Shown here in pieces: positions 2,504 to 33,951 of a stretch of 38,881 nucleotides of DNA. Positions within the stretch are counted from its first letter, which is position 1. Each line of letters starts with the position of its first letter. The notes under the pieces are model-generated. The model was not told the origin of the DNA. It saw nothing but the letters and a program-made list of their open reading frames with translations, and ran no database searches. Source of the stretch: a virus; the IMG/VR virus record IMGVR_UViG_3300025030_000254, positions 1 through 38,881 of that record. One strand, 5' to 3'. The translations under genes were made by a program, and so were the position numbers.

Positions 2504-2796
2504 CTTATATTTCCTTTCACTAAGTCCAACATTTGCTTTTGCATTTTTAATTGAGTCATCTGCATATCTTGGCTAAGTTCGTGGCTACTATTAGACATAT
2601 GATGTTCGTAAGCTTCAGTTATACGATAATGTTTTTTCTTTATCATTTCCTTAGCTTTGTTAATTGCTTCCTTTTCGTTAGAAGCGACTACATCAATGGT
2701 AACAACTTCCCATAATCTACCTTCTTCACCAATCATCTTCTCATAGCCTTGAACTTTGTAATGCCAATGGAGATCAGAAAATGGATCGTTTTTCAT
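2500..2796 (-). CDS. Small alpha/beta protein, unknown function
   Basis: The 98-residue protein overlaps the genes on both sides by 4 bases, so it is very likely translated. An N-terminal WHYKVQGYEKM, a strand 'VVTIDVVASNEKEAINKAKE' and a basic helix resemble small ferredoxin-like domains of phage accessory proteins. The tail is rich in Met and Gln and probably helical. No family is recognised. Because it lies between groEL and a glycosyltransferase, a link with either is possible but unsupported. Confidence 0.75.
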   Translation of the reverse strand: MKNDPFSDLHWHYKVQGYEKMIGEEGRLWEVVTIDVVASNEKEAINKAKEMIKKKHYRITEAYEHHMSNSSHELSQDMQMTQLKMQKQMLDLVKGNIR

Positions 2797-4397
2797 TTAT
2801 TTAAATCCTCTGGCGTATCAGTAATAAGCACATCAGTTGTAATTATCATCGAAGCTATACTTACAGCATTTTGCAAAGCACTTCTAGTAACAAGGACTGG
2901 ATCAATGATTCCTACTTTTATTAAATCCTTAACTTGTCCATCTAAAACATCAATGCCATAAGGATAGGACTTTCCAACTAACTTTTGCAGGGCTTCTCCA
3001 TAATCTATCCCCGCATTTTCCACTAATTTCTTAAAGGGAGCTTTCAAAGAGGTCAGTAATATCCTTCTCCCAACTGAAAACCCTTCCTGGGGCATTTCAG
3101 GAGCTTCCGAAGCTAGATTTAGCAATGTAATTTCTCCACCAGCCACAATTCCTTCATCTATTGCCGCTTTTGTCGCCGCTACTGCATCTATTACCCTTTC
3201 CTTTTTTTCTTTCATCTCTAGCTCACTAGCGGCACCAACATTTATAACTGCTATAGATCCTTGTAATCTAGCCAATCTTTCACCCTTGATCTCTTTATCA
3301 AAATCATTAGTAACTATTTTAAGTTGTCCTCGTAAATCAGATATTCTTTTGGCAACTTCCTTCTTGTCCCCTTTACCATTTAATATAATAGTCCTATCTC
3401 TATTAGTAACCACTTTATCTGCTCTACCAAGTTCTTCAGCTTTTACGGAAGCAATTTCTCTTCCAGAATCTCCTAGTATAGTTTTTGCACCTACTAATAT
3501 AGCCAAATCTTCTAACTCCTCAATTCTCCTAACTCCGAAAGCAGGAGCTTGAATAGCAGATACGTTAATTAGACCTCTAATTCTATTTGCTACCAAAGTT
3601 GCCATCGCCTCATCTACCACCCCACCTGCAATAATCACTAAATCCTTGCTACCTGTTTCTTTGGTAAAGTTCTCAAGAAACGGAAGTATCTCGTAGGAAT
3701 ATTTAATTTCTCTATCAGTAAGTAAGATGTAAGGGTTAGTCGTGACAGCTTCATTTCTTTCTTGATCTGTAACAAAATATGAAGATAAGTAGCCTCTATC
3801 TATTTCTATACCCTGCTTATAGTCAATATTAGTTTCTAGTGTTTTACCCTCTTCAACTGTAATTACTCCATCTTTACCTACTTTAATTAAGGCTTCTGCC
3901 ACTAATCTTCCCACTTCTGGATCGGCAGCTGATATAGTAGCTATCTGTTCTTTTTCTTTATCAGTTGATATTTTTGTTACAAGTTTTTCTAGTTCAACTA
4001 TAATAAATTTAGCACTTTGTTCTATCTCCTGCTTAACCTGCATAGGATTTACTCCTGCTTGAATTACTTTGTGAGCTTCTTTGATAATAGCTTGGGCTAA
4101 TATAGTTGAAGTAGTTGTACCATCTCCTGCTACTTGATTAGTTTTTAAAGCCGCACTTTTAATAAGTCTAGCTCCCATATCTTCGTGAACATCTTCTAAA
4201 TTAATTGATTTAGCTACACTCACACCATCGTGAAGAATAGTTGGTGGTACATCATAGTTTGCTGTTATATCTACCGCTACATTTCTTCCTCTAGGGCCTA
4301 AAGTAGAACCTACTGCCTCAGCTACAATATCTATACCTTTAAGTAACTTTTCTCTAGCTTCCGTATTAAACTTAATTAGCTTTGTATACTTAGCCAT
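2793..4397 (-). CDS. groEL: Chaperonin GroEL (group I, 60 kDa)
   Basis: The 534-residue protein is a full-length group I chaperonin, against 548 in E. coli. STLGPRGRNV (31-40), the catalytic aspartate region HDGVSVAK (Asp57) and the phosphate loop GDGTTT (91-96) are all present. So is the C-terminal equatorial stretch ending in DVLITDTPE. The usual GGM-repeat tail is absent, and the otherwise conserved triple glycine late in the protein reads AGGEIT. In bacteria it forms double rings that fold proteins with GroES and ATP. It overlaps groES by 8 bases and the next gene by 4. Sitting among phage glycan genes next to virion genes, it probably folds phage proteins or supplements the host chaperonin. 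A host-derived origin is an inference. Confidence 0.97.
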   Translation of the reverse strand: MAKYTKLIKFNTEAREKLLKGIDIVAEAVGSTLGPRGRNVAVDITANYDVPPTILHDGVSVAKSINLEDVHEDMGARLIKSAALKTNQVAGDGTTTSTILAQAIIKEAHKVIQAGVNPMQVKQEIEQSAKFIIVELEKLVTKISTDKEKEQIATISAADPEVGRLVAEALIKVGKDGVITVEEGKTLETNIDYKQGIEIDRGYLSSYFVTDQERNEAVTTNPYILLTDREIKYSYEILPFLENFTKETGSKDLVIIAGGVVDEAMATLVANRIRGLINVSAIQAPAFGVRRIEELEDLAILVGAKTILGDSGREIASVKAEELGRADKVVTNRDRTIILNGKGDKKEVAKRISDLRGQLKIVTNDFDKEIKGERLARLQGSIAVINVGAASELEMKEKKERVIDAVAATKAAIDEGIVAGGEITLLNLASEAPEMPQEGFSVGRRILLTSLKAPFKKLVENAGIDYGEALQKLVGKSYPYGIDVLDGQVKDLIKVGIIDPVLVTRSALQNAVSIASMIITTDVLITDTPEDLNK

Positions 4398-4647
4398 AGT
4401 AACCCATTAGTTCATCAAACTTAACTAATTTTAATTCCTTACCACCTTCCCCAACATCCTGGCCACCCCATCTTTTAAAGATAACAATACGGCCAACCTT
4501 AACTGGTGATGCTTCTGAAACTTCAATAACTTTACCCTTAGCAGGTTTTTCTTTGGAACTTTCAGGTTCCACAAGTCCAGACTCTCTTACGCCTTGCTTT
4601 TCTGTAATTTCTACTAGAACATAACCTGGAAAGGGTTTAAGTTTCAT
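4390..4647 (-). CDS. groES: Co-chaperonin GroES (10 kDa)
   Basis: The 85-residue length fits GroES (about 95). PFPGYVLVEI opens the beta barrel, a mobile loop (SGLVEP) lies near residues 23-28, and the EKPAKGKVIEVSE stretch matches the conserved KPxxGxVxxVG. GroES caps the GroEL cavity through its mobile loop. The gene precedes groEL with an 8-base overlap, the normal order, and itself overlaps the upstream FkbM gene by 4 bases. The roof hairpin region is short. Confidence 0.92.
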   Translation of the reverse strand: MKLKPFPGYVLVEITEKQGVRESGLVEPESSKEKPAKGKVIEVSEASPVKVGRIVIFKRWGGQDVGEGGKELKLVKFDELMGYYG

Positions 4648-5950: not shown

Positions 5951-5960
5951 AAATTAAAAA

Positions 5961-6024
5961 GGATGTACTTCCGAGGAAATACATCCATTTCAGGATACAT
6001 AGCCCCTCGGAAAGCTATATATCC
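5961..6024 (-). terminator. Tandem hairpins with complementary loops; second is an intrinsic terminator
   Basis: Read on the minus strand, the first hairpin (6024-5993) has 11-base arms with one G-U pair. The second (5986-5961) has GGATGTA/TACATCC arms, extendable inward to a CTCG tetraloop, and is followed by TTTTTAATTT. That makes it a good intrinsic terminator for the virion operon. The loop of the first contains TTCCGAGG and the loop region of the second contains CCTCGGAA, perfect 8-base complements, so the two could kiss and change termination. The terminator ends 10 bases before the FkbM start codon. Confidence 0.7.
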
Positions 6025-6054
6025 AAATTAGCAGACTACCTATCATTCTGTCAA

Positions 6055-7198: not shown

Positions 7199-7268
7199 CG
7201 GGGAGGGCTTAGCAGTGAAAGGCGACCCACAAATATATTGTGAAATTACCGCTAAGTCTCCCCCGATG
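7196..7268 (-). promoter_or_regulatory. Long hairpin that pairs the start codon of the following gene
   Basis: On the minus strand the arm 7268-7251 pairs with 7213-7196 over 18 positions, 15 of them Watson-Crick, one G-U and two mismatched. The inner sequence holds a second perfect hairpin (CACAA/TTGTG, 7242-7228). The 3' arm ends in CCTCCCCGATG, whose ATG starts the 112-residue gene. Location between capsid gene and this gene suggests reduced or regulated translation, or an RNase processing site. Confidence 0.65.
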
Positions 7269-7350
7269 AGTGCTTTGATACGGTCTTCCCTAGTTTATTG
7301 ATTCACTTCAGGTTTCCGTTCACGATGCCCAAAGCACCCAAAAAGCACCT

Positions 7351-8595
7351 TTAGCCTGTCTTCTGAGTCAACCTCGCATTAGCAGCTGGTGCTAAACACA
7401 AGGCATTAACAAACCAAACCATTCCAGCCTGGTATTTAATCGTGTTTTGAAGTCTCAGTAGATTACCTCCCTGTGGATCTTCAAGCCAATCCATATCTCC
7501 TACCTGACAAATTGTCCAGGTATCAAGATTGACGAAGACACATTCTCCATCAGGTACATCGTAGTCTAGGAACACTCCAACTCTCCCTGCACCTGCAGCA
7601 AAGGAAAGTCCAGTCCAACCTCCCAATAGATCGGTTTCATTGACTTCTCGCCTCATTGCTGTCAAGAGATCTCCATACTTTCGGTAAAGAGTTTTGTTGA
7701 CAAGAATAATGAATTGATTGTCCATCTCAGCATATTCTTTAGCCGCAATGTATATATTTTCCATGCGGGTAAGAGTCAATGCTTCAGATACGGAACCAAA
7801 TTGAGGAGTCCATCCAGTAGTACTTCTAGCTAATCCTGCATAGGTACTTGTTCCAGTAGATGAGGATAGAGCTAATCTAAGACCCTGAATTTCTTGGGTA
7901 CCAGCAGCGTTACCTGAACCATCTTCGATATATACTGAATCGCTACCTACACTTGCTGTTGCACCTGTAAGTTGAACAGAAGTGCCAGTTAAAGCGGAGA
8001 CAGTACCATCGGCTACACCTGCAGTACCAATACCAAGTATTTGCCCTGCGGCAAGATATTTGATAGGGTCAATATCTCCATTTACGGAACCATACCAGTC
8101 AATACTTCGACCATCATCTAATCCAGAATCGGGCCTCATTACTGAAAACTCAGTACCTGAAACTGATCCTAAAACCTGAGAGACTACACCTACACCATCG
8201 CTGTAATGCTGTCTGTTGACATGACGAGCAAAGTCGTCAGCAAGAGTTTTGGTTTGAGCTGTTAGAGCGTTTTCTACGGCTAGGTCTCCTTGGGACGCAT
8301 CGATAGCCAACTTAGAAATATCCAAAGCACCGGTTACAATCTTTGGAGAAACTGTACCTCGAGAGGTAGATCTTCCAGACGCAGCATTTAAGTTTGCATT
8401 GTCATTTGCCAAGTTGGTAACCCCACCATGTCGAGTAGTATATACTGGGGCAATGAACTCATTATTGATGCGATCAACACCAGCATTTCGTTTCATCTGA
8501 TCAAGAAGTATGGTTTTCTTTGGAAAGTTGTTCCTTATATAAGGAAGCAATATTTCTTTCAAAGCGGCCGTATAGTTACTTAATAGTAAAGCCAT
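7351..8595 (-). CDS. Major capsid protein (HK97-like fold)
   Basis: The 414-residue protein has the size, position after the scaffold gene, and sequence shape of an HK97-type major capsid protein. An N-terminal helical region comes first, then a middle domain containing an inserted Gly/Thr/Ser-rich stretch (about 185-250). A long alpha region (SEALTLTRMENIYIAAKEYA) and the C-terminal strands (MDWLEDPQGGNLLRLQ) follow. A strong GGGGGGTG site precedes the ATG. The GT-rich insert may be a surface loop. No matching search was possible, so the call rests on order and composition. Confidence 0.82.
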   Translation of the reverse strand: MALLLSNYTAALKEILLPYIRNNFPKKTILLDQMKRNAGVDRINNEFIAPVYTTRHGGVTNLANDNANLNAASGRSTSRGTVSPKIVTGALDISKLAIDASQGDLAVENALTAQTKTLADDFARHVNRQHYSDGVGVVSQVLGSVSGTEFSVMRPDSGLDDGRSIDWYGSVNGDIDPIKYLAAGQILGIGTAGVADGTVSALTGTSVQLTGATASVGSDSVYIEDGSGNAAGTQEIQGLRLALSSSTGTSTYAGLARSTTGWTPQFGSVSEALTLTRMENIYIAAKEYAEMDNQFIILVNKTLYRKYGDLLTAMRREVNETDLLGGWTGLSFAAGAGRVGVFLDYDVPDGECVFVNLDTWTICQVGDMDWLEDPQGGNLLRLQNTIKYQAGMVWFVNALCLAPAANARLTQKTG

Positions 8596-17275: not shown

Positions 17276-17282
17276 TAACTAG

Positions 17283-17312
17283 ATTATACCCATAATCAAG
17301 TTACTATTGCAA
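17283..17312 (-). promoter_or_regulatory. Promoter of the terminase and virion operon
   Basis: TTGCAA (17312-17307), an 18-base spacer and a perfect TATAAT (17288-17283) lie on the minus strand. The predicted start point falls on or within two bases of the TTG start codon of terL. The GC-rich pentamer array ends just upstream of the -35. Confidence 0.7.
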
Positions 17313-17313
17313 C

Positions 17314-17393
17314 CTAGCCTAGCCTTGCCTTGCCTCGCCTGGCCTTGCCTTGCCTCGCCTGGCCCTGCCTCGCCCTGCCATGCCACGAATAGA
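17314..17393 (-). repeat. GC-rich degenerate pentamer array A
   Basis: On the minus strand the array reads as about 14 tandem units of the form GGCNN (GGCAA, GGCGA, GGCCA, GGCTA). It opens with ATTCGTGGCA right behind the stop of the upstream gene and runs up to the terL promoter. GC content is far above the surroundings. GG tracts recur every five bases, which permits two-quartet G-quadruplexes on this strand. A second copy lies at 17951-18028. Confidence 0.85.
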
Positions 17394-17398
17394 TCTAC

Positions 17399-20206: not shown

Positions 20207-20236
20207 TTGACATACTTATACAAGGGGTTGTATGAT
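20207..20236 (+). promoter_or_regulatory. Rightward promoter with inverted repeat
   Basis: TTGACA (20207-20212), an 18-base spacer and TATGAT (20231-20236) lie on the plus strand, divergent from the small-terminase promoter. ATACAA-GGGG-TTGTAT (20218-20233) is an inverted repeat across spacer and -10, a likely operator. It is the only clear rightward promoter in the window. Confidence 0.75.
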
Positions 20237-20242
20237 GTAATT

Positions 20243-20421
20243 GTACATTAAGTTAAAGACTAAGGTTCCTTGACTGGGTAGGATTAAATCAGCCCGTAAC
20301 TGACAAGCCTTAAATTAGGTAGAGTTGAATTAGACTCTTTAAATGTAATGCGGTCGGTCGCTAGGTTAGAAACCCAAGACGGTGTATAACGCCTTACGAA
20401 TAACATTATTCAATTAAAAAA
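20243..20421 (+). ncRNA. Candidate structured leader RNA
   Basis: About 180 bases without a gene follow the rightward promoter. CATTA and TTAAAGA (20246-20259) pair with TCTTTAA and TAATG (20336-20350), enclosing a domain. Inside, AAGG and CTTG (262-265, 269-272 of 20xxx) pair with the continuous CAAGCCTT (20304-20311). GGG/CCC (20276-20278, 20293-20295) and GAT/ATC with a TAA loop are nested within. AGAGT/ACTCT forms a side hairpin. A second part has GGTT-AGA-AACC (20364-20374) and GGTG-TATAA-CGCC (20381-20393). It could be a cis-regulator of the following zinc-ribbon gene or an independent RNA. The remaining spacer 20124-20206 shows nothing. Confidence 0.55.
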
Positions 20422-24807: not shown

Positions 24808-24862
24808 ATCGTCTATCTTCTGTTTGTTTATATTATCACTTTATATTTTTAAAAACAAATTT

Positions 24863-24905
24863 GGCGGGAGAAGCTATCCGTCCATAACTTCTCCCTGACC
24901 CCGCC
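24863..24905 (-). terminator. Intrinsic terminator ahead of gmhA
   Basis: GGGAGAAG (minus 24895-24888) pairs with CTTCTCCC (24873-24866) with an inner TAT/ATA. An alternative outer GGCGG/CCGCC pairing is possible. AAATTTGTTTTTA follows. It ends the upstream zinc-ribbon transcript. Confidence 0.75.
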
Positions 24906-24908
24906 ATA

Positions 24909-24971
24909 AGTAATGACCTTCTTTCGACTGGTGGTGCTGGCGGCAGGGGCGGGGAAAGAAGGCCAGTTACT
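24909..24971 (-). other. GC-looped hairpin behind the zinc-ribbon gene
   Basis: CCTTCTTTC (minus 24962-24954 side) pairs perfectly with GAAAGAAGG (24925-24917), extended by AGTAA/TTACT with bulges. The loop of about 28 bases is almost all C and G on one strand. With the adjoining terminator it makes a 110-base non-coding, folded stretch of higher GC content than the genes around. Confidence 0.6.
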
Positions 24972-24987
24972 CCCACAAGATAAAGGA

Positions 24988-26221: not shown

Positions 26222-26356
26222 AATCAGGGAATAAATCCCTGAGAATCCCCCACCACTGAAGGCAGCACCTGCCCTATACTACCAACATTTGGTGTGGCAG
26301 GGGAGTCTCAGGTTATGAAAGGGAGTGGGCTTCTCTCACAACCTGATTTTACCACT
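26222..26356 (-). promoter_or_regulatory. Folded 5' leader of the lysozyme gene
   Basis: About 135 bases separate the promoter from the ATG. TCAGGTT/AACCTGA (26346-26340 with 26314-26308) forms a first hairpin. GAGACTCCCC pairs with GGGGATTCTC across an inner GGCAG-CAC-CTGCC-type hairpin. TCAGGGA-TTTAT-TCCCTGA (26242-26224) is a perfect hairpin ending two bases before the ATG. The fold may delay lysozyme translation. Confidence 0.6.
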
Positions 26357-26357
26357 T

Positions 26358-26394
26358 GGGTATATTATACCCCTCTTGTTAAATTACTTGTCAA
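26358..26394 (-). promoter_or_regulatory. Lysozyme promoter with palindrome over the -10
   Basis: TTGACA (26394-26389), a 19-base spacer and TATAAT (26369-26364) are followed by the leader. GGGTATA-T-TATACCC (26358-26372) is a perfect palindrome centred on the -10 and a likely operator. Confidence 0.68.
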
Positions 26395-26440: not shown

Positions 26441-26656
26441 TTATTTCACATTAACTACTTCTTTGAAATCCCTTAATTTAGATTCCCAAAGAATCTCTGA
26501 CACTCTACCAACCACCTCATATTCTTCTAGGTTTGGGTAGTTTTCACTACTCCCCTGACCTAAATCTTCTTTTATAATGTGCCAAACCTTGTGATTGCCT
26601 TTGTCTGGGTCTTTTTTATCTACTGCGGTTACATAGCTTTCAATTGTTAATTTCAT
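26441..26656 (-). CDS. Small acidic protein, unknown
   Basis: The 71-residue protein is charged (VDKKDPDKGNHKVWHIIKED, then NLEEYEVVGRVSEI) with a helix at the end. A strong AAAGGAGGTG site precedes the ATG. It is the last gene of a small accessory operon. No family recognised. Confidence 0.65.
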   Translation of the reverse strand: MKLTIESYVTAVDKKDPDKGNHKVWHIIKEDLGQGSSENYPNLEEYEVVGRVSEILWESKLRDFKEVVNVK

Positions 26657-26663
26657 AATTTAT

Positions 26664-26831
26664 TCACCTCCTTTCACCCCTTTTGTTTCTAAAAAATTTA
26701 TTTATATCTTTGACTGAATCAAAAAAATAAAATTGGTTAGTTCCAGTCTCATCACCTATTCTACTCAAAACATACGAATTTATACCCACTACCCTAAGCC
26801 ACCAACCTTGAACTTCTGGTATTAGTTTCAT
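26664..26831 (-). CDS. Small protein, 55 residues
   Basis: The ATG at 26831 overlaps the upstream stop (ATGA) with AAGGAGGGG just before it and is chosen over an earlier start at 26885. The protein (MKLIPEVQGWWLRVVGINSY, then FYFFDSVKDINKFF and a basic end) is alpha/beta. Unknown. Confidence 0.65.
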   Translation of the reverse strand: MKLIPEVQGWWLRVVGINSYVLSRIGDETGTNQFYFFDSVKDINKFFRNKRGERR

Positions 26832-27157
26832 TTCCCCTCCTTCTGTTCTAGGGATTGTAAGAAGTTTTTCAATTCTACAAAGCACTTCTTATGCGTAATT
26901 CCATTGTTGTAAGCCCATATCTCTACCTCCTCCAAAGCCTCTTCCCTCCCAGCTTGGTAGGCTTTTGCTTCTACTTTTGAGACAAAGGATTTTATTTCTT
27001 TTACATTGTCTGGGCTTCTGCTATACATACCTTTTCCAAATTTAGCTTTTGCTACCATAGCACTTTTATTTGTAGGGTGTTTTTCTAATTCCCCATAACC
27101 TAAAAAATAATCGTGCGTAAACTTTTTATCAAATTCTTTTTCTGTTTCTTTATCCAT
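26828..27157 (-). CDS. Small helical protein sharing its first seven residues with another gene
   Basis: The 109-residue protein (MDKETEKEFDKKFTHDYFLG, ending LKNFLQSLEQKEGK) is helical and contains a KAYQAGREEALEEVEIW segment like those of other small phage proteins here. The first 20 bases and the AGATTATT just upstream are the same as at 20559. It lies directly behind two folded RNA elements. Function unknown. Confidence 0.68.
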   Translation of the reverse strand: MDKETEKEFDKKFTHDYFLGYGELEKHPTNKSAMVAKAKFGKGMYSRSPDNVKEIKSFVSKVEAKAYQAGREEALEEVEIWAYNNGITHKKCFVELKNFLQSLEQKEGK

Positions 27158-27178
27158 AATAATCTTAGGTTTGTACTT

Positions 27179-27321
27179 TAATATGCTGGGGGCAAGGATT
27201 TGTTAGCCTTAAGACGTCTCTCGGGCATATCTCACCTTGCAGCAGCCCTAGGAAGGGGACACGGGCTTACTCTCATTTCACCCCACGCAGCTTTACCCTA
27301 TTCAGCCACCCCAGCATATTA
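27179..27321 (-). ncRNA. Candidate structured RNA 1, closed by a perfect 13-base stem
   Basis: TAATATGCTGGGG at the 5' end (minus 27321-27309) pairs perfectly with CCCCAGCATATTA at the 3' end (27191-27179). The enclosed 117 bases hold further pairings: GGGG/CCCC, GGGC/GCCC and CAAGG/CCTTG. No open frame covers it. The element ends 21 bases before the ATG at 27157, so it may be a 5' regulator or an independent RNA. It does not match tRNA, tmRNA, SRP or RNase P patterns that I know. Confidence 0.65.
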
Positions 27322-27355
27322 GATTGTTAACCTTCTATCCTTCGTCTTAATCACT

Positions 27356-27430
27356 TAGAAAGGGTTGGCGGGTGCTATCTTCTTGGGGTTGATAACGAAC
27401 AAATGGATGTTTGTAGACCAACCCTTTCTA
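27356..27430 (-). ncRNA. Candidate structured RNA 2, three-way junction
   Basis: TAGAAAGGGTTGG (minus 27430-27418) pairs perfectly with CCAACCCTTTCTA (27368-27356) as a 13-base stem. Within the 49-base interior, ACAAA/TTTGT and TTATC/GATAG form two hairpins, giving a compact three-way junction of 75 bases. It lies 35 bases upstream of RNA 1 in the same direction and behind a membrane-protein gene. Confidence 0.65.
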
Positions 27431-27453
27431 GGTAGATCCCTCTCACTTTCCGC

Positions 27454-27657
27454 CTATTTAATCTCCTCTTTAGTTTCGTAAAGAAGCGAACAGCTTACCT
27501 TATTTTTTATACACACGTTCACTTCTTCTTTTGTATCTCTCGGTACTGGCATGAGTACGTAGTTTTTGTTAAACCACACTCCGCCATAGGTAATTATTCC
27601 CAGTAACAGAACAATTACGCCTAAAAGTACGATCTCTCTAACTTTTGGCAGGTTCAT
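27454..27657 (-). CDS. Single-span membrane protein
   Basis: Residues 9-28 (IVLLGVIVLLLGIITYGGVW) form a membrane helix, followed by a 38-residue outer part with two cysteines (NVCIKNKVSCSLL), perhaps disulphide-bonded. The two folded RNAs follow its stop. Unknown; a lysis or exclusion role is possible. Confidence 0.62.
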   Translation of the reverse strand: MNLPKVREIVLLGVIVLLLGIITYGGVWFNKNYVLMPVPRDTKEEVNVCIKNKVSCSLLYETKEEIK

Positions 27658-27674
27658 TTTTTATCACGCTCCCT

Positions 27675-28373
27675 TCAATTTATTTCTTCTAACTCTTTTA
27701 CTCTGTTTTTAAACCACTTTTCAATATCGTTCAAAAATGCTGACTCTGCTGCTGACCATGCTGCTGACCTTGCTGCTGACTCTGCTGACCATGCTACTGA
27801 CCTTGCTGCTGACCATGCTACTGACCTTGCTGCTGACCATGCTGCTGACTCTGCTGACCATGCTGCTGACCATGCTACTGACTCTGCTGACCATGCTGCT
27901 GACCATGCTACTGACCTTGCTGCTGACTCTGCTGACCATGCTGCTGACCTTACTGCATCTCGGTTCTTCTTGGTGTCTTTGAATAGAACCTTCTTGGCTG
28001 CTTCTATAGCTTCTCTTGGTCTTTTATCGTTTGGAAACTCTTTCTCAAAGTTAGATAGTACTTTCTCGGCGGCATAGATAGCTAGAGACAAACTGTCTTT
28101 CCTAGTCCACTTCCAAGCCTTGACTATCTTCATGCTTTCGTTACAGGTTTTATCTTCATCGTCTAATTTCTTTCCTTTAGTTTCTACCTCTGCAAGAACT
28201 TCTCCTTGAATATAAGAAGAGGCATAATACATGGTTGGTGAGCAATGATAACCTGTTTCGCAAAGTTTAAGTTCGCCTTCCCAAGTTTTCCATTCACCTA
28301 TCGTCCACTTTTCGTTTCCGTTTTCAGAAACTATGTTTTTACCTTGTAATCTTAAAAACTTAAATTGTTTCAT
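27675..28373 (-). CDS. Phage protein with Ala-Trp-Ser repeat helix
   Basis: The 232-residue protein has a folded N-terminal half: FKFLRLQGKNIVSENGNEKW, then ELKLCETGYHCSPTMYYASS. The C-x(5)-H/C pattern is that of a widespread phage domain with unknown function. From about residue 142 to 213 it consists of SAAW, SAAR, SVAW and SAE units, giving a long Ala-rich amphipathic helix with Trp every seventh or eighth residue. The ATG overlaps the upstream stop (ATGA). The repeat DNA is listed separately. Repeat number probably varies among relatives. Confidence 0.75.
   Translation of the reverse strand: MKQFKFLRLQGKNIVSENGNEKWTIGEWKTWEGELKLCETGYHCSPTMYYASSYIQGEVLAEVETKGKKLDDEDKTCNESMKIVKAWKWTRKDSLSLAIYAAEKVLSNFEKEFPNDKRPREAIEAAKKVLFKDTKKNRDAVRSAAWSAESAARSVAWSAAWSAESVAWSAAWSAESAAWSAARSVAWSAARSVAWSAESAARSAAWSAAESAFLNDIEKWFKNRVKELEEIN
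27740..27955 (-). repeat. Coding minisatellite (Ala-Trp-Ser repeat)
   Basis: Short blocks such as GCTGCTGACCATGCTGCTGACC recur on the plus strand with 9-12 base units over about 215 bases. The minus-strand reading gives SAAW/SAE/SVAW units. Because units are multiples of three, slippage changes length without breaking the frame. Confidence 0.9.
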
Positions 28374-29923: not shown

Positions 29924-29957
29924 GCATATTATATGCACAGGGTTACATATTTGTCAA
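29924..29957 (-). promoter_or_regulatory. Consensus promoter with GCATAT palindrome
   Basis: TTGACA (29957-29952), 18-base spacer and TATAAT (29933-29928). GCATAT-T-ATATGC (29924-29936) is a perfect palindrome centred on the -10 box. Confidence 0.8.
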
Positions 29958-32233: not shown

Positions 32234-33951
32234 TGACCCCCTAACATTTGCATTAAATCTGTCTGTGCTGTAGGTTCCATACCTGGCATTGATGTTTGTG
32301 GTGGTTGTGCGTTGTTTAGTAACTGTTTAAGTACTTGTAACTTAGTACGTGCTACTGGGTCTGTATCGGATAACTTCGGTATGTATAGGTTAGCTAGTTC
32401 AAAATCTTTATCTGAAATCCTCGCTCCTTGATAAGCACGAAGAACATTAAGTTTAAGAATAGTATATTTCTGATTTAAACCAATTACCTTATTTGGGAGG
32501 CCAGCTCCTCCTAAAACACCAACTTGAAATTCATAAAGTCTCCCTTGAGCTGGCCCAAAACCTAGTTTATCATTGCTTGCTATACTATTCATAGTATCGT
32601 TTGCTTTACTTAAAAACTCATCGGAAGCACCAGGTTTAGCTTGTCCTAAACTTTGAGATTTATACGCATCTTCTATTTTTGAAGCTTCTTTAGGTTCAAG
32701 TAAAATATGGGCTAGTGATACCATGTCTGGAGTAATATTGACACCTTGTGATATACTTTGGTCAAATGAAGATGGTACTTGTTCTCCTGTTACTTGCCCC
32801 GTTTGTCCTGCTTGGCTTGGTAATTGCATTAAATCTTCTGGTGTGGCTTCTGGGAAAACTTCACCTCCCGTGGCTTCTTGTGGAAGAAAAGGTAAACGAG
32901 GAGCAATTTGGGAAATAGCTCTACCAGCAGGTACTTGTCCAGCAATTTCTGCTCCTGTTTGTAGACCTCTACCTAATACATCAGCTCCAGTTTGAACTGC
33001 ACCCATACCAGGAACATTTATACCTAAAAACGGTAGCCTAAGACTAGACTTAGCCCCTTGTAGTAAGGGTCCTTCAGCAGCAGCAAATAAATGCCCTTGT
33101 TGAGTAATTAGGTCAGCAACTTCTTCCGATGTATTTGCTACCGATTCTCTTAACCCTTTCCAAACAGCTTGGTTCACTTCTTTAACAGCTCTTGAACCCC
33201 CAGTTTTAAAACCATCATCACCAAATTGAGATAGTGTTTTAAGTAATACTTGAGGATCAACTTTATTTTTACTAACTATATTAGATAGTTTACCTAAAGC
33301 TACACCTACTGGTTTTTCATAAGCAGGATCAGCTGCAAAACCTTCTAATTGTTTAAGAATAGGATTCAATACTTCATCAACATTAATAGCTTTCTTTGGA
33401 ACTACCTCTGCAATTCGGTTCCCTAGTTTTGATACTAAAGGTTCAAGGGCATCTCTCTTAGCAGTAGCTGATCCTGCTTTAGTCAAGTTCTGAACAGTTT
33501 TAAGTACATCAGCTTCTTTAAGAGCGCCGCCTAATACTTTTGAGCCTTTACCTAAACTGCCTGGGGTAACTCCAGTAGCAAATTTCTGTAAACCAGCACC
33601 AATACTTTCAAGACCACCCTTACTTGCCGCCCTACCACCTAAACCTAAAAATCTGCCCAACATACCTCCTAGACCTCCAAAGGCAGCTTCAGCTGCTATT
33701 CCTCTCACATTAGATTTACCTGTTAATTTCTGTTCTACAGCTTCACCAATACCAGAACCAACAGCTCCACCAACAGGGCCGCCAAAAGGTAAACCTAGTA
33801 GACCTCCAAGTATAGGAAGTATATTAAACTTTTCTATGAAATTTTGTTTTGGTTCACTAGAAGTTTGGCTATCTGCTAAGGTAGCCTTACCAAAATCCAT
33901 TCCCTTTAAAGCTCTTGCTAGTGCTCTTCTTCTTTTTTCATCATCCGTCAT
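32230..33951 (-). CDS. Large internal virion / DNA-ejection protein candidate
   Basis: The 573-residue protein has a hydrophobic Gly-rich zone at 45-110 (ILPILGGLLGLPFGGPVGG onward), like the membrane-active parts of podovirus ejection proteins. Helical and Gln/Gly-rich regions follow, with 'SQISQGV' and a long C-terminal helix set. It lies between tail and lysis genes. Insertion into the host envelope during ejection is an inference from composition and place. Confidence 0.65.
   Translation of the reverse strand: MTDDEKRRRALARALKGMDFGKATLADSQTSSEPKQNFIEKFNILPILGGLLGLPFGGPVGGAVGSGIGEAVEQKLTGKSNVRGIAAEAAFGGLGGMLGRFLGLGGRAASKGGLESIGAGLQKFATGVTPGSLGKGSKVLGGALKEADVLKTVQNLTKAGSATAKRDALEPLVSKLGNRIAEVVPKKAINVDEVLNPILKQLEGFAADPAYEKPVGVALGKLSNIVSKNKVDPQVLLKTLSQFGDDGFKTGGSRAVKEVNQAVWKGLRESVANTSEEVADLITQQGHLFAAAEGPLLQGAKSSLRLPFLGINVPGMGAVQTGADVLGRGLQTGAEIAGQVPAGRAISQIAPRLPFLPQEATGGEVFPEATPEDLMQLPSQAGQTGQVTGEQVPSSFDQSISQGVNITPDMVSLAHILLEPKEASKIEDAYKSQSLGQAKPGASDEFLSKANDTMNSIASNDKLGFGPAQGRLYEFQVGVLGGAGLPNKVIGLNQKYTILKLNVLRAYQGARISDKDFELANLYIPKLSDTDPVARTKLQVLKQLLNNAQPPQTSMPGMEPTAQTDLMQMLGGQ

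Follow-up and report, generated by a model that had tools for sequence, protein, structure and literature searches.

Two elements fill an intercistronic spacer

The window analysed here is the whole of IMG/VR record IMGVR_UViG_3300025030_000254, a stretch of 38,881 nucleotides of viral DNA. Two elements, which we call RNA 1 and RNA 2, lie in a spacer between two small open reading frames (ORFs), and the neighbouring genes are all on the minus strand. The features of the locus are listed below.

27158–27453, minus strand, 296 nt: intercistronic spacer that holds RNA 1 and RNA 2.
27356–27430, minus strand, 75 nt: RNA 2, with a perfect 13-bp closing stem, a predicted three-way junction and two inner hairpins.
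27179–27321, minus strand (provisional), 143 nt: RNA 1, with a perfect 13-bp closing stem and an interior whose fold is at chance level.
27454–27657, minus strand: upstream ORF of 67 aa, 99% identical at the protein level in the relative L128.
26828–27157, minus strand: downstream ORF of 109 aa, whose first codons resemble those in the relative L105 (ATGGATAAAGAARCAGAAAAAGA).

Read along the minus strand, the order is the stop codon of the 67-aa ORF, 23 nt, RNA 2, 34 nt, RNA 1, 21 nt and the ATG of the 109-aa ORF. The two elements occupy nearly the whole spacer, with ~20 nt left free on each side. The stem arms are TAATATGCTGGGG (27179–27191) and CCCCAGCATATTA (27309–27321) for RNA 1, and TAGAAAGGGTTGG (27356–27368) and CCAACCCTTTCTA (27418–27430) for RNA 2. 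A stem search of the window bore out the sequence-only reading that two perfect 13-bp stems lie at these positions, 34 nt apart, and close elements of 143 and 75 nt. The same reading had placed no gene inside them; indeed, the RNA region holds no ORF of at least 50 aa, and its longest small ORF (40 aa, TTG start) is on the opposite, plus strand. No Shine-Dalgarno-like sequence is visible between RNA 1 and the start codon at 27157. RNA 1 has a G+C content of 52%, as against 38% for the genome, and its repeats run on imperfectly, to 25 nt at 80%.

Just three stems in the window are perfect over at least 11 bp and have a loop of 20–180 nt. Two of these close RNA 1 and RNA 2, and the third is inside a coding gene (33321–33479). 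When the 296-nt spacer was shuffled 20,000 times with dinucleotide composition kept, one stem of at least 13 bp was found in 5 shuffles and two such stems in none. Given this rarity, both in the window and among shuffles, the stems of RNA 1 and RNA 2 are real and beyond chance.

Two other loci of the window deserve mention. The minus-strand ORF at 27675–28373 gives DUF7666 and Imm5-like matches and contains a long tract of WSA-type repeats; the TGCTGAC DNA repeats of this tract create spurious long ORFs in another frame as well as on the opposite strand. At 2793–4647 there is a phage-encoded chaperonin, with a Cpn60 (GroEL-like) ORF beside an 85-aa ORF that looks like GroES.

RNA 2 has a predicted structure inside its stem; the interior of RNA 1 folds at chance level

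The z-score of the RNA 2 fold is −6.16 for the minus strand as against −3.71 for the plus strand, and the three-way junction that had been described for it is predicted on the minus strand. On its own, its 49-nt interior has a z-score of −2.91 on the minus strand, a value reached by 3 of 200 shuffles, as against −0.14 on the plus strand. Since this interior is structured on the coding strand only, it is independent evidence for an RNA of that strand. The folding models thus make RNA 2 a credible coding-strand (minus) RNA.

RNA 1 as a whole has a z-score of −2.48. Taken alone, its 117-nt interior scores +1.15 (minus) and +1.42 (plus), with 176 and 187 of 200 shuffles, respectively, folding at least as well. 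Because the interior is no better than shuffles, the folding energy of RNA 1 comes from its closing stem, and the “several inner pairings” previously seen in it are at chance level. The description of both elements as folded RNAs is supported for RNA 2 and, in RNA 1, for the closing stem but not for the interior. The outermost pairs of both stems can be lengthened through G-U pairs on the plus strand only, so the assignment of RNA 1 to the minus strand is provisional. The entire spacer has z-scores of −1.5 (minus) and −2.6 (plus).

No match to a known RNA class and no further copies found

The view that neither element belongs to a known RNA class withstood our searches. Rfam 15 gave no match at the gathering threshold across the window, and E-values of up to 10 gave only implausible sub-threshold matches on the RNA region. 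ARAGORN at default settings called neither a tRNA nor a tmRNA, with or without introns allowed; lowered thresholds gave implausible forced calls that were out of register with the stems. A tRNA-like RNA 1, built from an acceptor, a D-like hairpin and an adjoining stem, was considered and rejected, as it has no T-loop and ARAGORN with introns was empty at default settings. Neither inspection by eye nor Rfam revealed a likeness to twister, hammerhead, group I or group II RNAs.

DNA similar to the RNA region was absent from 50,697 phage records and from 50 IMG/VR records that have the same portal protein or neighbouring gene; among 72,556 plasmids there was nothing similar apart from one chance match. 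The repeat pair of RNA 1, with a gap of 102–132 nt, is absent from GTDB species genomes, and the loop pattern of RNA 2 was not found in IMG/VR. RNA 1 and RNA 2 are therefore each present as a single copy among the collections searched, and with one copy of each there is no compensatory change to count.

The flanking genes are also sparsely represented. We found no relatives of the 109-aa ORF at 26828 in IMG/VR, and the ORF at 26441 has a relative only in L127, which is the same record as L105. The ORF at 27675 has relatives at eight loci, all of which lack the two RNAs. A scan of GTDB with a portal profile, tried as a means of finding the host, gave a sole match of 15 aa in a contig of a Candidatus Daviesbacteria metagenome-assembled genome (MAG) and was too weak to use. 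On that contig, MFCS01000006.1 (L142:6638–6879), the exact 15-aa portal stretch is beside a reversed fragment related to the ORF at 33951. The contig is apparently a mosaic or a misassembly, and is at most a weak hint of the host.

Two relatives differ at the same spacer

Two relatives are informative for this spacer, L128 (IMGVR 3300002460_000048) and L105 (IMGVR 3300002460_001159). L128 has the upstream 67-aa ORF, and across window positions 27440–27664 the two DNAs are 92.9% identical. Homology ends at 27440, ten bases short of the 13-bp stem of RNA 2. The L128 spacer, bounded by the same stop codon and the ATG of the following gene, instead contains an unrelated 54-nt hairpin (z-score −5.1). 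In L105 the neighbouring genes are syntenic, but RNA 1, RNA 2 and the upstream ORF are all missing. The content of the spacer thus varies in the manner of a cassette: L128 has a different structure there, and L105 has no structure.

Long closing stems recur across the lineage

In the window and 20 relatives, we counted 16 spacer stems of at least 11 bp that enclose 20–130 nt, whereas shuffles predict ~1.4 per strand. Furthermore, about half of the longer spacers of the window fold below a z-score of −2.5 on the gene strand; coding controls average −0.2. Two of the structured regions are leaders that are conserved in relatives.

Late leader: window 26222–26394 (RNA 26222–26360), minus strand; L128:7085–7245 and L105:10460–10632.
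Early leader: window 20207–20318 (58-nt noncoding stretch 20255–20312), plus strand; L128:3137–3200.

The late leader lies between a promoter-like site and a lysis gene with an SLT domain. In the window and in L105 the promoter-like site consists of TTGACA, a 19-nt spacer and TATAAT. The three sequences of this leader show compensatory changes at two closing-stem pairs and at one more pair inside, and the loop GGGCAGG is invariant in all three; Rfam has no match for it. The early leader lies behind a TTGACA/TATGAT promoter-like site, and a closing stem with two inner hairpins is predicted. Its 58-nt stretch is 95% identical in L128. In a more distant relative, G035, it is an unrelated long-stem RNA (z-score −6.9) that separates a promoter-like site from an SLT lysis gene.

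The motif GGGYAGG falls inside closing stems of at least 11 bp in 9 of its 211 occurrences, as compared with 0.37% of random positions; these amount to ~7 independent cases once homologues are collapsed. These elements differ in where the loop sits with respect to the closing stem. With the closing stem relaxed to 8 bp, GGGYAGG was no different from control 7-mers, so the association is limited to long closing stems. The link is no more than suggestive, since the motif was noticed first and tested afterwards and since the signal is lost with shorter stems. GGGYAGG is absent from both RNA 1 and RNA 2. The sequence AAUAGGGUAAAG in RNA 1 is only a near match, and it does not make RNA 1 a member because long stems show no association with GGGYAA (2 of 866). 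For the same reason, we attribute to chance the AAUAGGGYAA that RNA 1 has in common with a 13-bp-stem element of G050 (L131:8530–8613).

Several other structures were observed. Further long-stem elements with GGGYAGG occur in relatives (L046:163–232, L046:695–766, L047:863–934, L092:8825–8882, L108:2942–2985 and L071:2359–2457), mostly in spacers and with unrelated stem sequences. In G050, a tandem pair on the minus strand (L131:8525–8668), one member of which has a perfect 13-bp closing stem, closes a minus-strand gene run and faces a plus-strand gene. The window has another tandem long-stem pair at 7199–7350, minus strand, downstream of a 414-aa ORF (7351–8595). Tandem hairpins at 5951–6054, minus strand, have loops that are complementary over 8 nt (TTCCGAGG and CCTCGGAA), and a T run follows the second hairpin; this may be a kissing-loop terminator. 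At 24808–24987, minus strand, the loop CCCCGCC of a long hairpin is complementary to GGCGGGG just past the stem, possibly forming a large pseudoknot, and a second strong hairpin follows. Lastly, the minus-strand spacer at 17276–17398 is made of short GGC-rich near-repeats (GGCAGGGCGAGGCAGGGCCAGGC...) and has a z-score of −3.9.

Discussion

What might two long-stem elements do in the middle of an operon? We tentatively propose, with a probability of roughly 0.42, that RNA 1 and RNA 2 are cis-acting intercistronic structures on a polycistronic minus-strand operon mRNA. They lie between co-directional genes, as intercistronic stem-loops do, and their stems are beyond chance. The proposal is based on the stems filling the spacer, the coding-strand fold of RNA 2, the hairpin in L128 and the enrichment of stems in spacers of the lineage. 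We also count in its favour that no consensus sigma-70 promoter directly precedes RNA 2 or RNA 1, the closest perfect sigma-70-like promoter on the upstream side of the minus strand being at 29957–29928, ~2.5 kb from RNA 2, and that no U-tract terminator follows either element. Against it we count the absence of both elements from L105, the shuffle-level interior of RNA 1, the extension of the stems by G-U pairs on the plus strand only, and the failure to find a homologue of RNA 1 or RNA 2.

As cis-acting structures, the stems could be barriers to exonucleases or ribosomes, or they could be cleavage sites, and the flanking genes would thereby be expressed or degraded independently of each other. 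Cassette exchange would leave the primary sequence free to vary, which would account for the lack of homologues. RNA 1 would then be a long-range closing stem around a big loop that is either unstructured or bound by something.

The main rival, particularly for RNA 1, is a DNA-level origin, which we consider unlikely: the repeats would be the ends of a small MITE-like insert, or a palindrome for recombination or regulation, and folding would be a by-product. Such an origin fits a spacer that is non-homologous to both informative relatives, and it fits RNA 1 in particular, with its high G+C content, unstructured interior and imperfectly extended repeats. RNA 2 is less easily explained in this way, as only one of its strands has a structured interior. 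Moreover, there is no second copy in the window or in the records of the 50 relatives, the repeat pair of RNA 1 is absent from GTDB, and the edges show no target-site duplication. For the collections searched, we therefore rejected a MITE or other small mobile element; the missing copies do not, however, speak against a one-off insertion.

Slightly less likely than a DNA-level origin is a pair of independent small RNAs, possibly decoys or counter-defence RNAs, made from the operon transcript or from unrecognised promoters. Compact closed folds in a gene-free gap, one of them with a z-score of −6.2, would suit this idea, which the sequence-only reading had raised. Nonetheless, nothing indicates separate transcription: there is no promoter-like site directly upstream of either element and no terminator-like site behind, and conservation was not seen in phage, plasmid or relatives' records.

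We think it very improbable that the elements are a processive antiterminator, in which tandem stem-loops of the nascent transcript let RNA polymerase pass later terminators. The put sequence of phage HK022 encodes such an RNA: about 70 nt long, it lies downstream of early promoters and has two stem-loops (PMC9378689). The tandem two-element layout and the size are close to those of put (PMC9378689), and structured leaders are found directly behind promoter-like sites in the same lineage. However, RNA 2 is far from the nearest strong promoter-like site (29957–29928), there is no terminator-like site between RNA 2 and the late leader, RNA 1 has no defined fold, and neither RNA 1 nor RNA 2 has sequence in common with the lineage's leaders.

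A riboswitch-like leader for the gene that starts at 27157, also suggested earlier, has next to no likelihood and is unsupported: only proximity favours it, RNA 1 ending 21 nt ahead of a start codon with no visible Shine-Dalgarno-like sequence, whereas RNA 1 has no conserved core, conserving relative or sensible Rfam match even at E-values of up to 10, no alternative pairing or terminator was recognised, and the gene itself is an uncharacterised accessory ORF for which IMG/VR yielded no relative. Overall, both stems and the fold of RNA 2 have survived from the sequence-only reading, the interior of RNA 1 has not, and the functions it suggested are mostly unsupported.

By themselves, RNA 1 and RNA 2 are spacer structures without conservation. 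They pointed, however, to a lineage-wide pattern in uncultivated phages, that is, spacers enriched in long-stem RNAs, and to early and late leader RNAs that are conserved between phages sharing little else nearby. The interest of RNA 1 and RNA 2 is modest in itself and greater as a pointer to these conserved leaders. Should the leaders work on the host polymerase, they would add to the examples of RNA-only regulation in phages other than the lambdoid ones. A bolder idea, which we judge quite improbable, is that structured RNA is for the most part how this uncultivated lineage controls its transcription. The long-stem elements behind the early and late promoters and at the junctions of genes, several of which have a GGGYAGG loop, would then form one system, and RNA 2 and RNA 1 would be divergent, exchangeable parts of it that act on host polymerase or ribonucleases.

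Comparison with known systems

Intercistronic stem-loops and processing hairpins are found in phage operons, an example being the RNase III sites of T7. RNA 1 and RNA 2 resemble these in having long stems between two genes of an operon, with ~20 nt free on each side of the pair, and RNA 2 is on the coding strand. They differ in being tandem elements whose stems close about 47–117 nt and are not tight hairpins. The early and late leaders of the lineage are similar in that they occur in spacers, mostly on the strand of the genes, and have a long closing stem around 34–50 nt that include inner hairpins; RNA 1 and RNA 2 differ in lacking the GGGYAGG loop.

The putL and putR elements of HK022, compared here by layout, are likewise a tandem pair in a phage transcript, and RNA 2 is of similar length. 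RNA 1 and RNA 2 differ from them in that they are not promoter-proximal, the inner fold of RNA 1 is unsupported and no terminator to pass was found. A put-like role suits the leaders at 26222–26394 and 20207–20318, which are promoter-proximal, better than it does the mid-operon RNA 1 and RNA 2.
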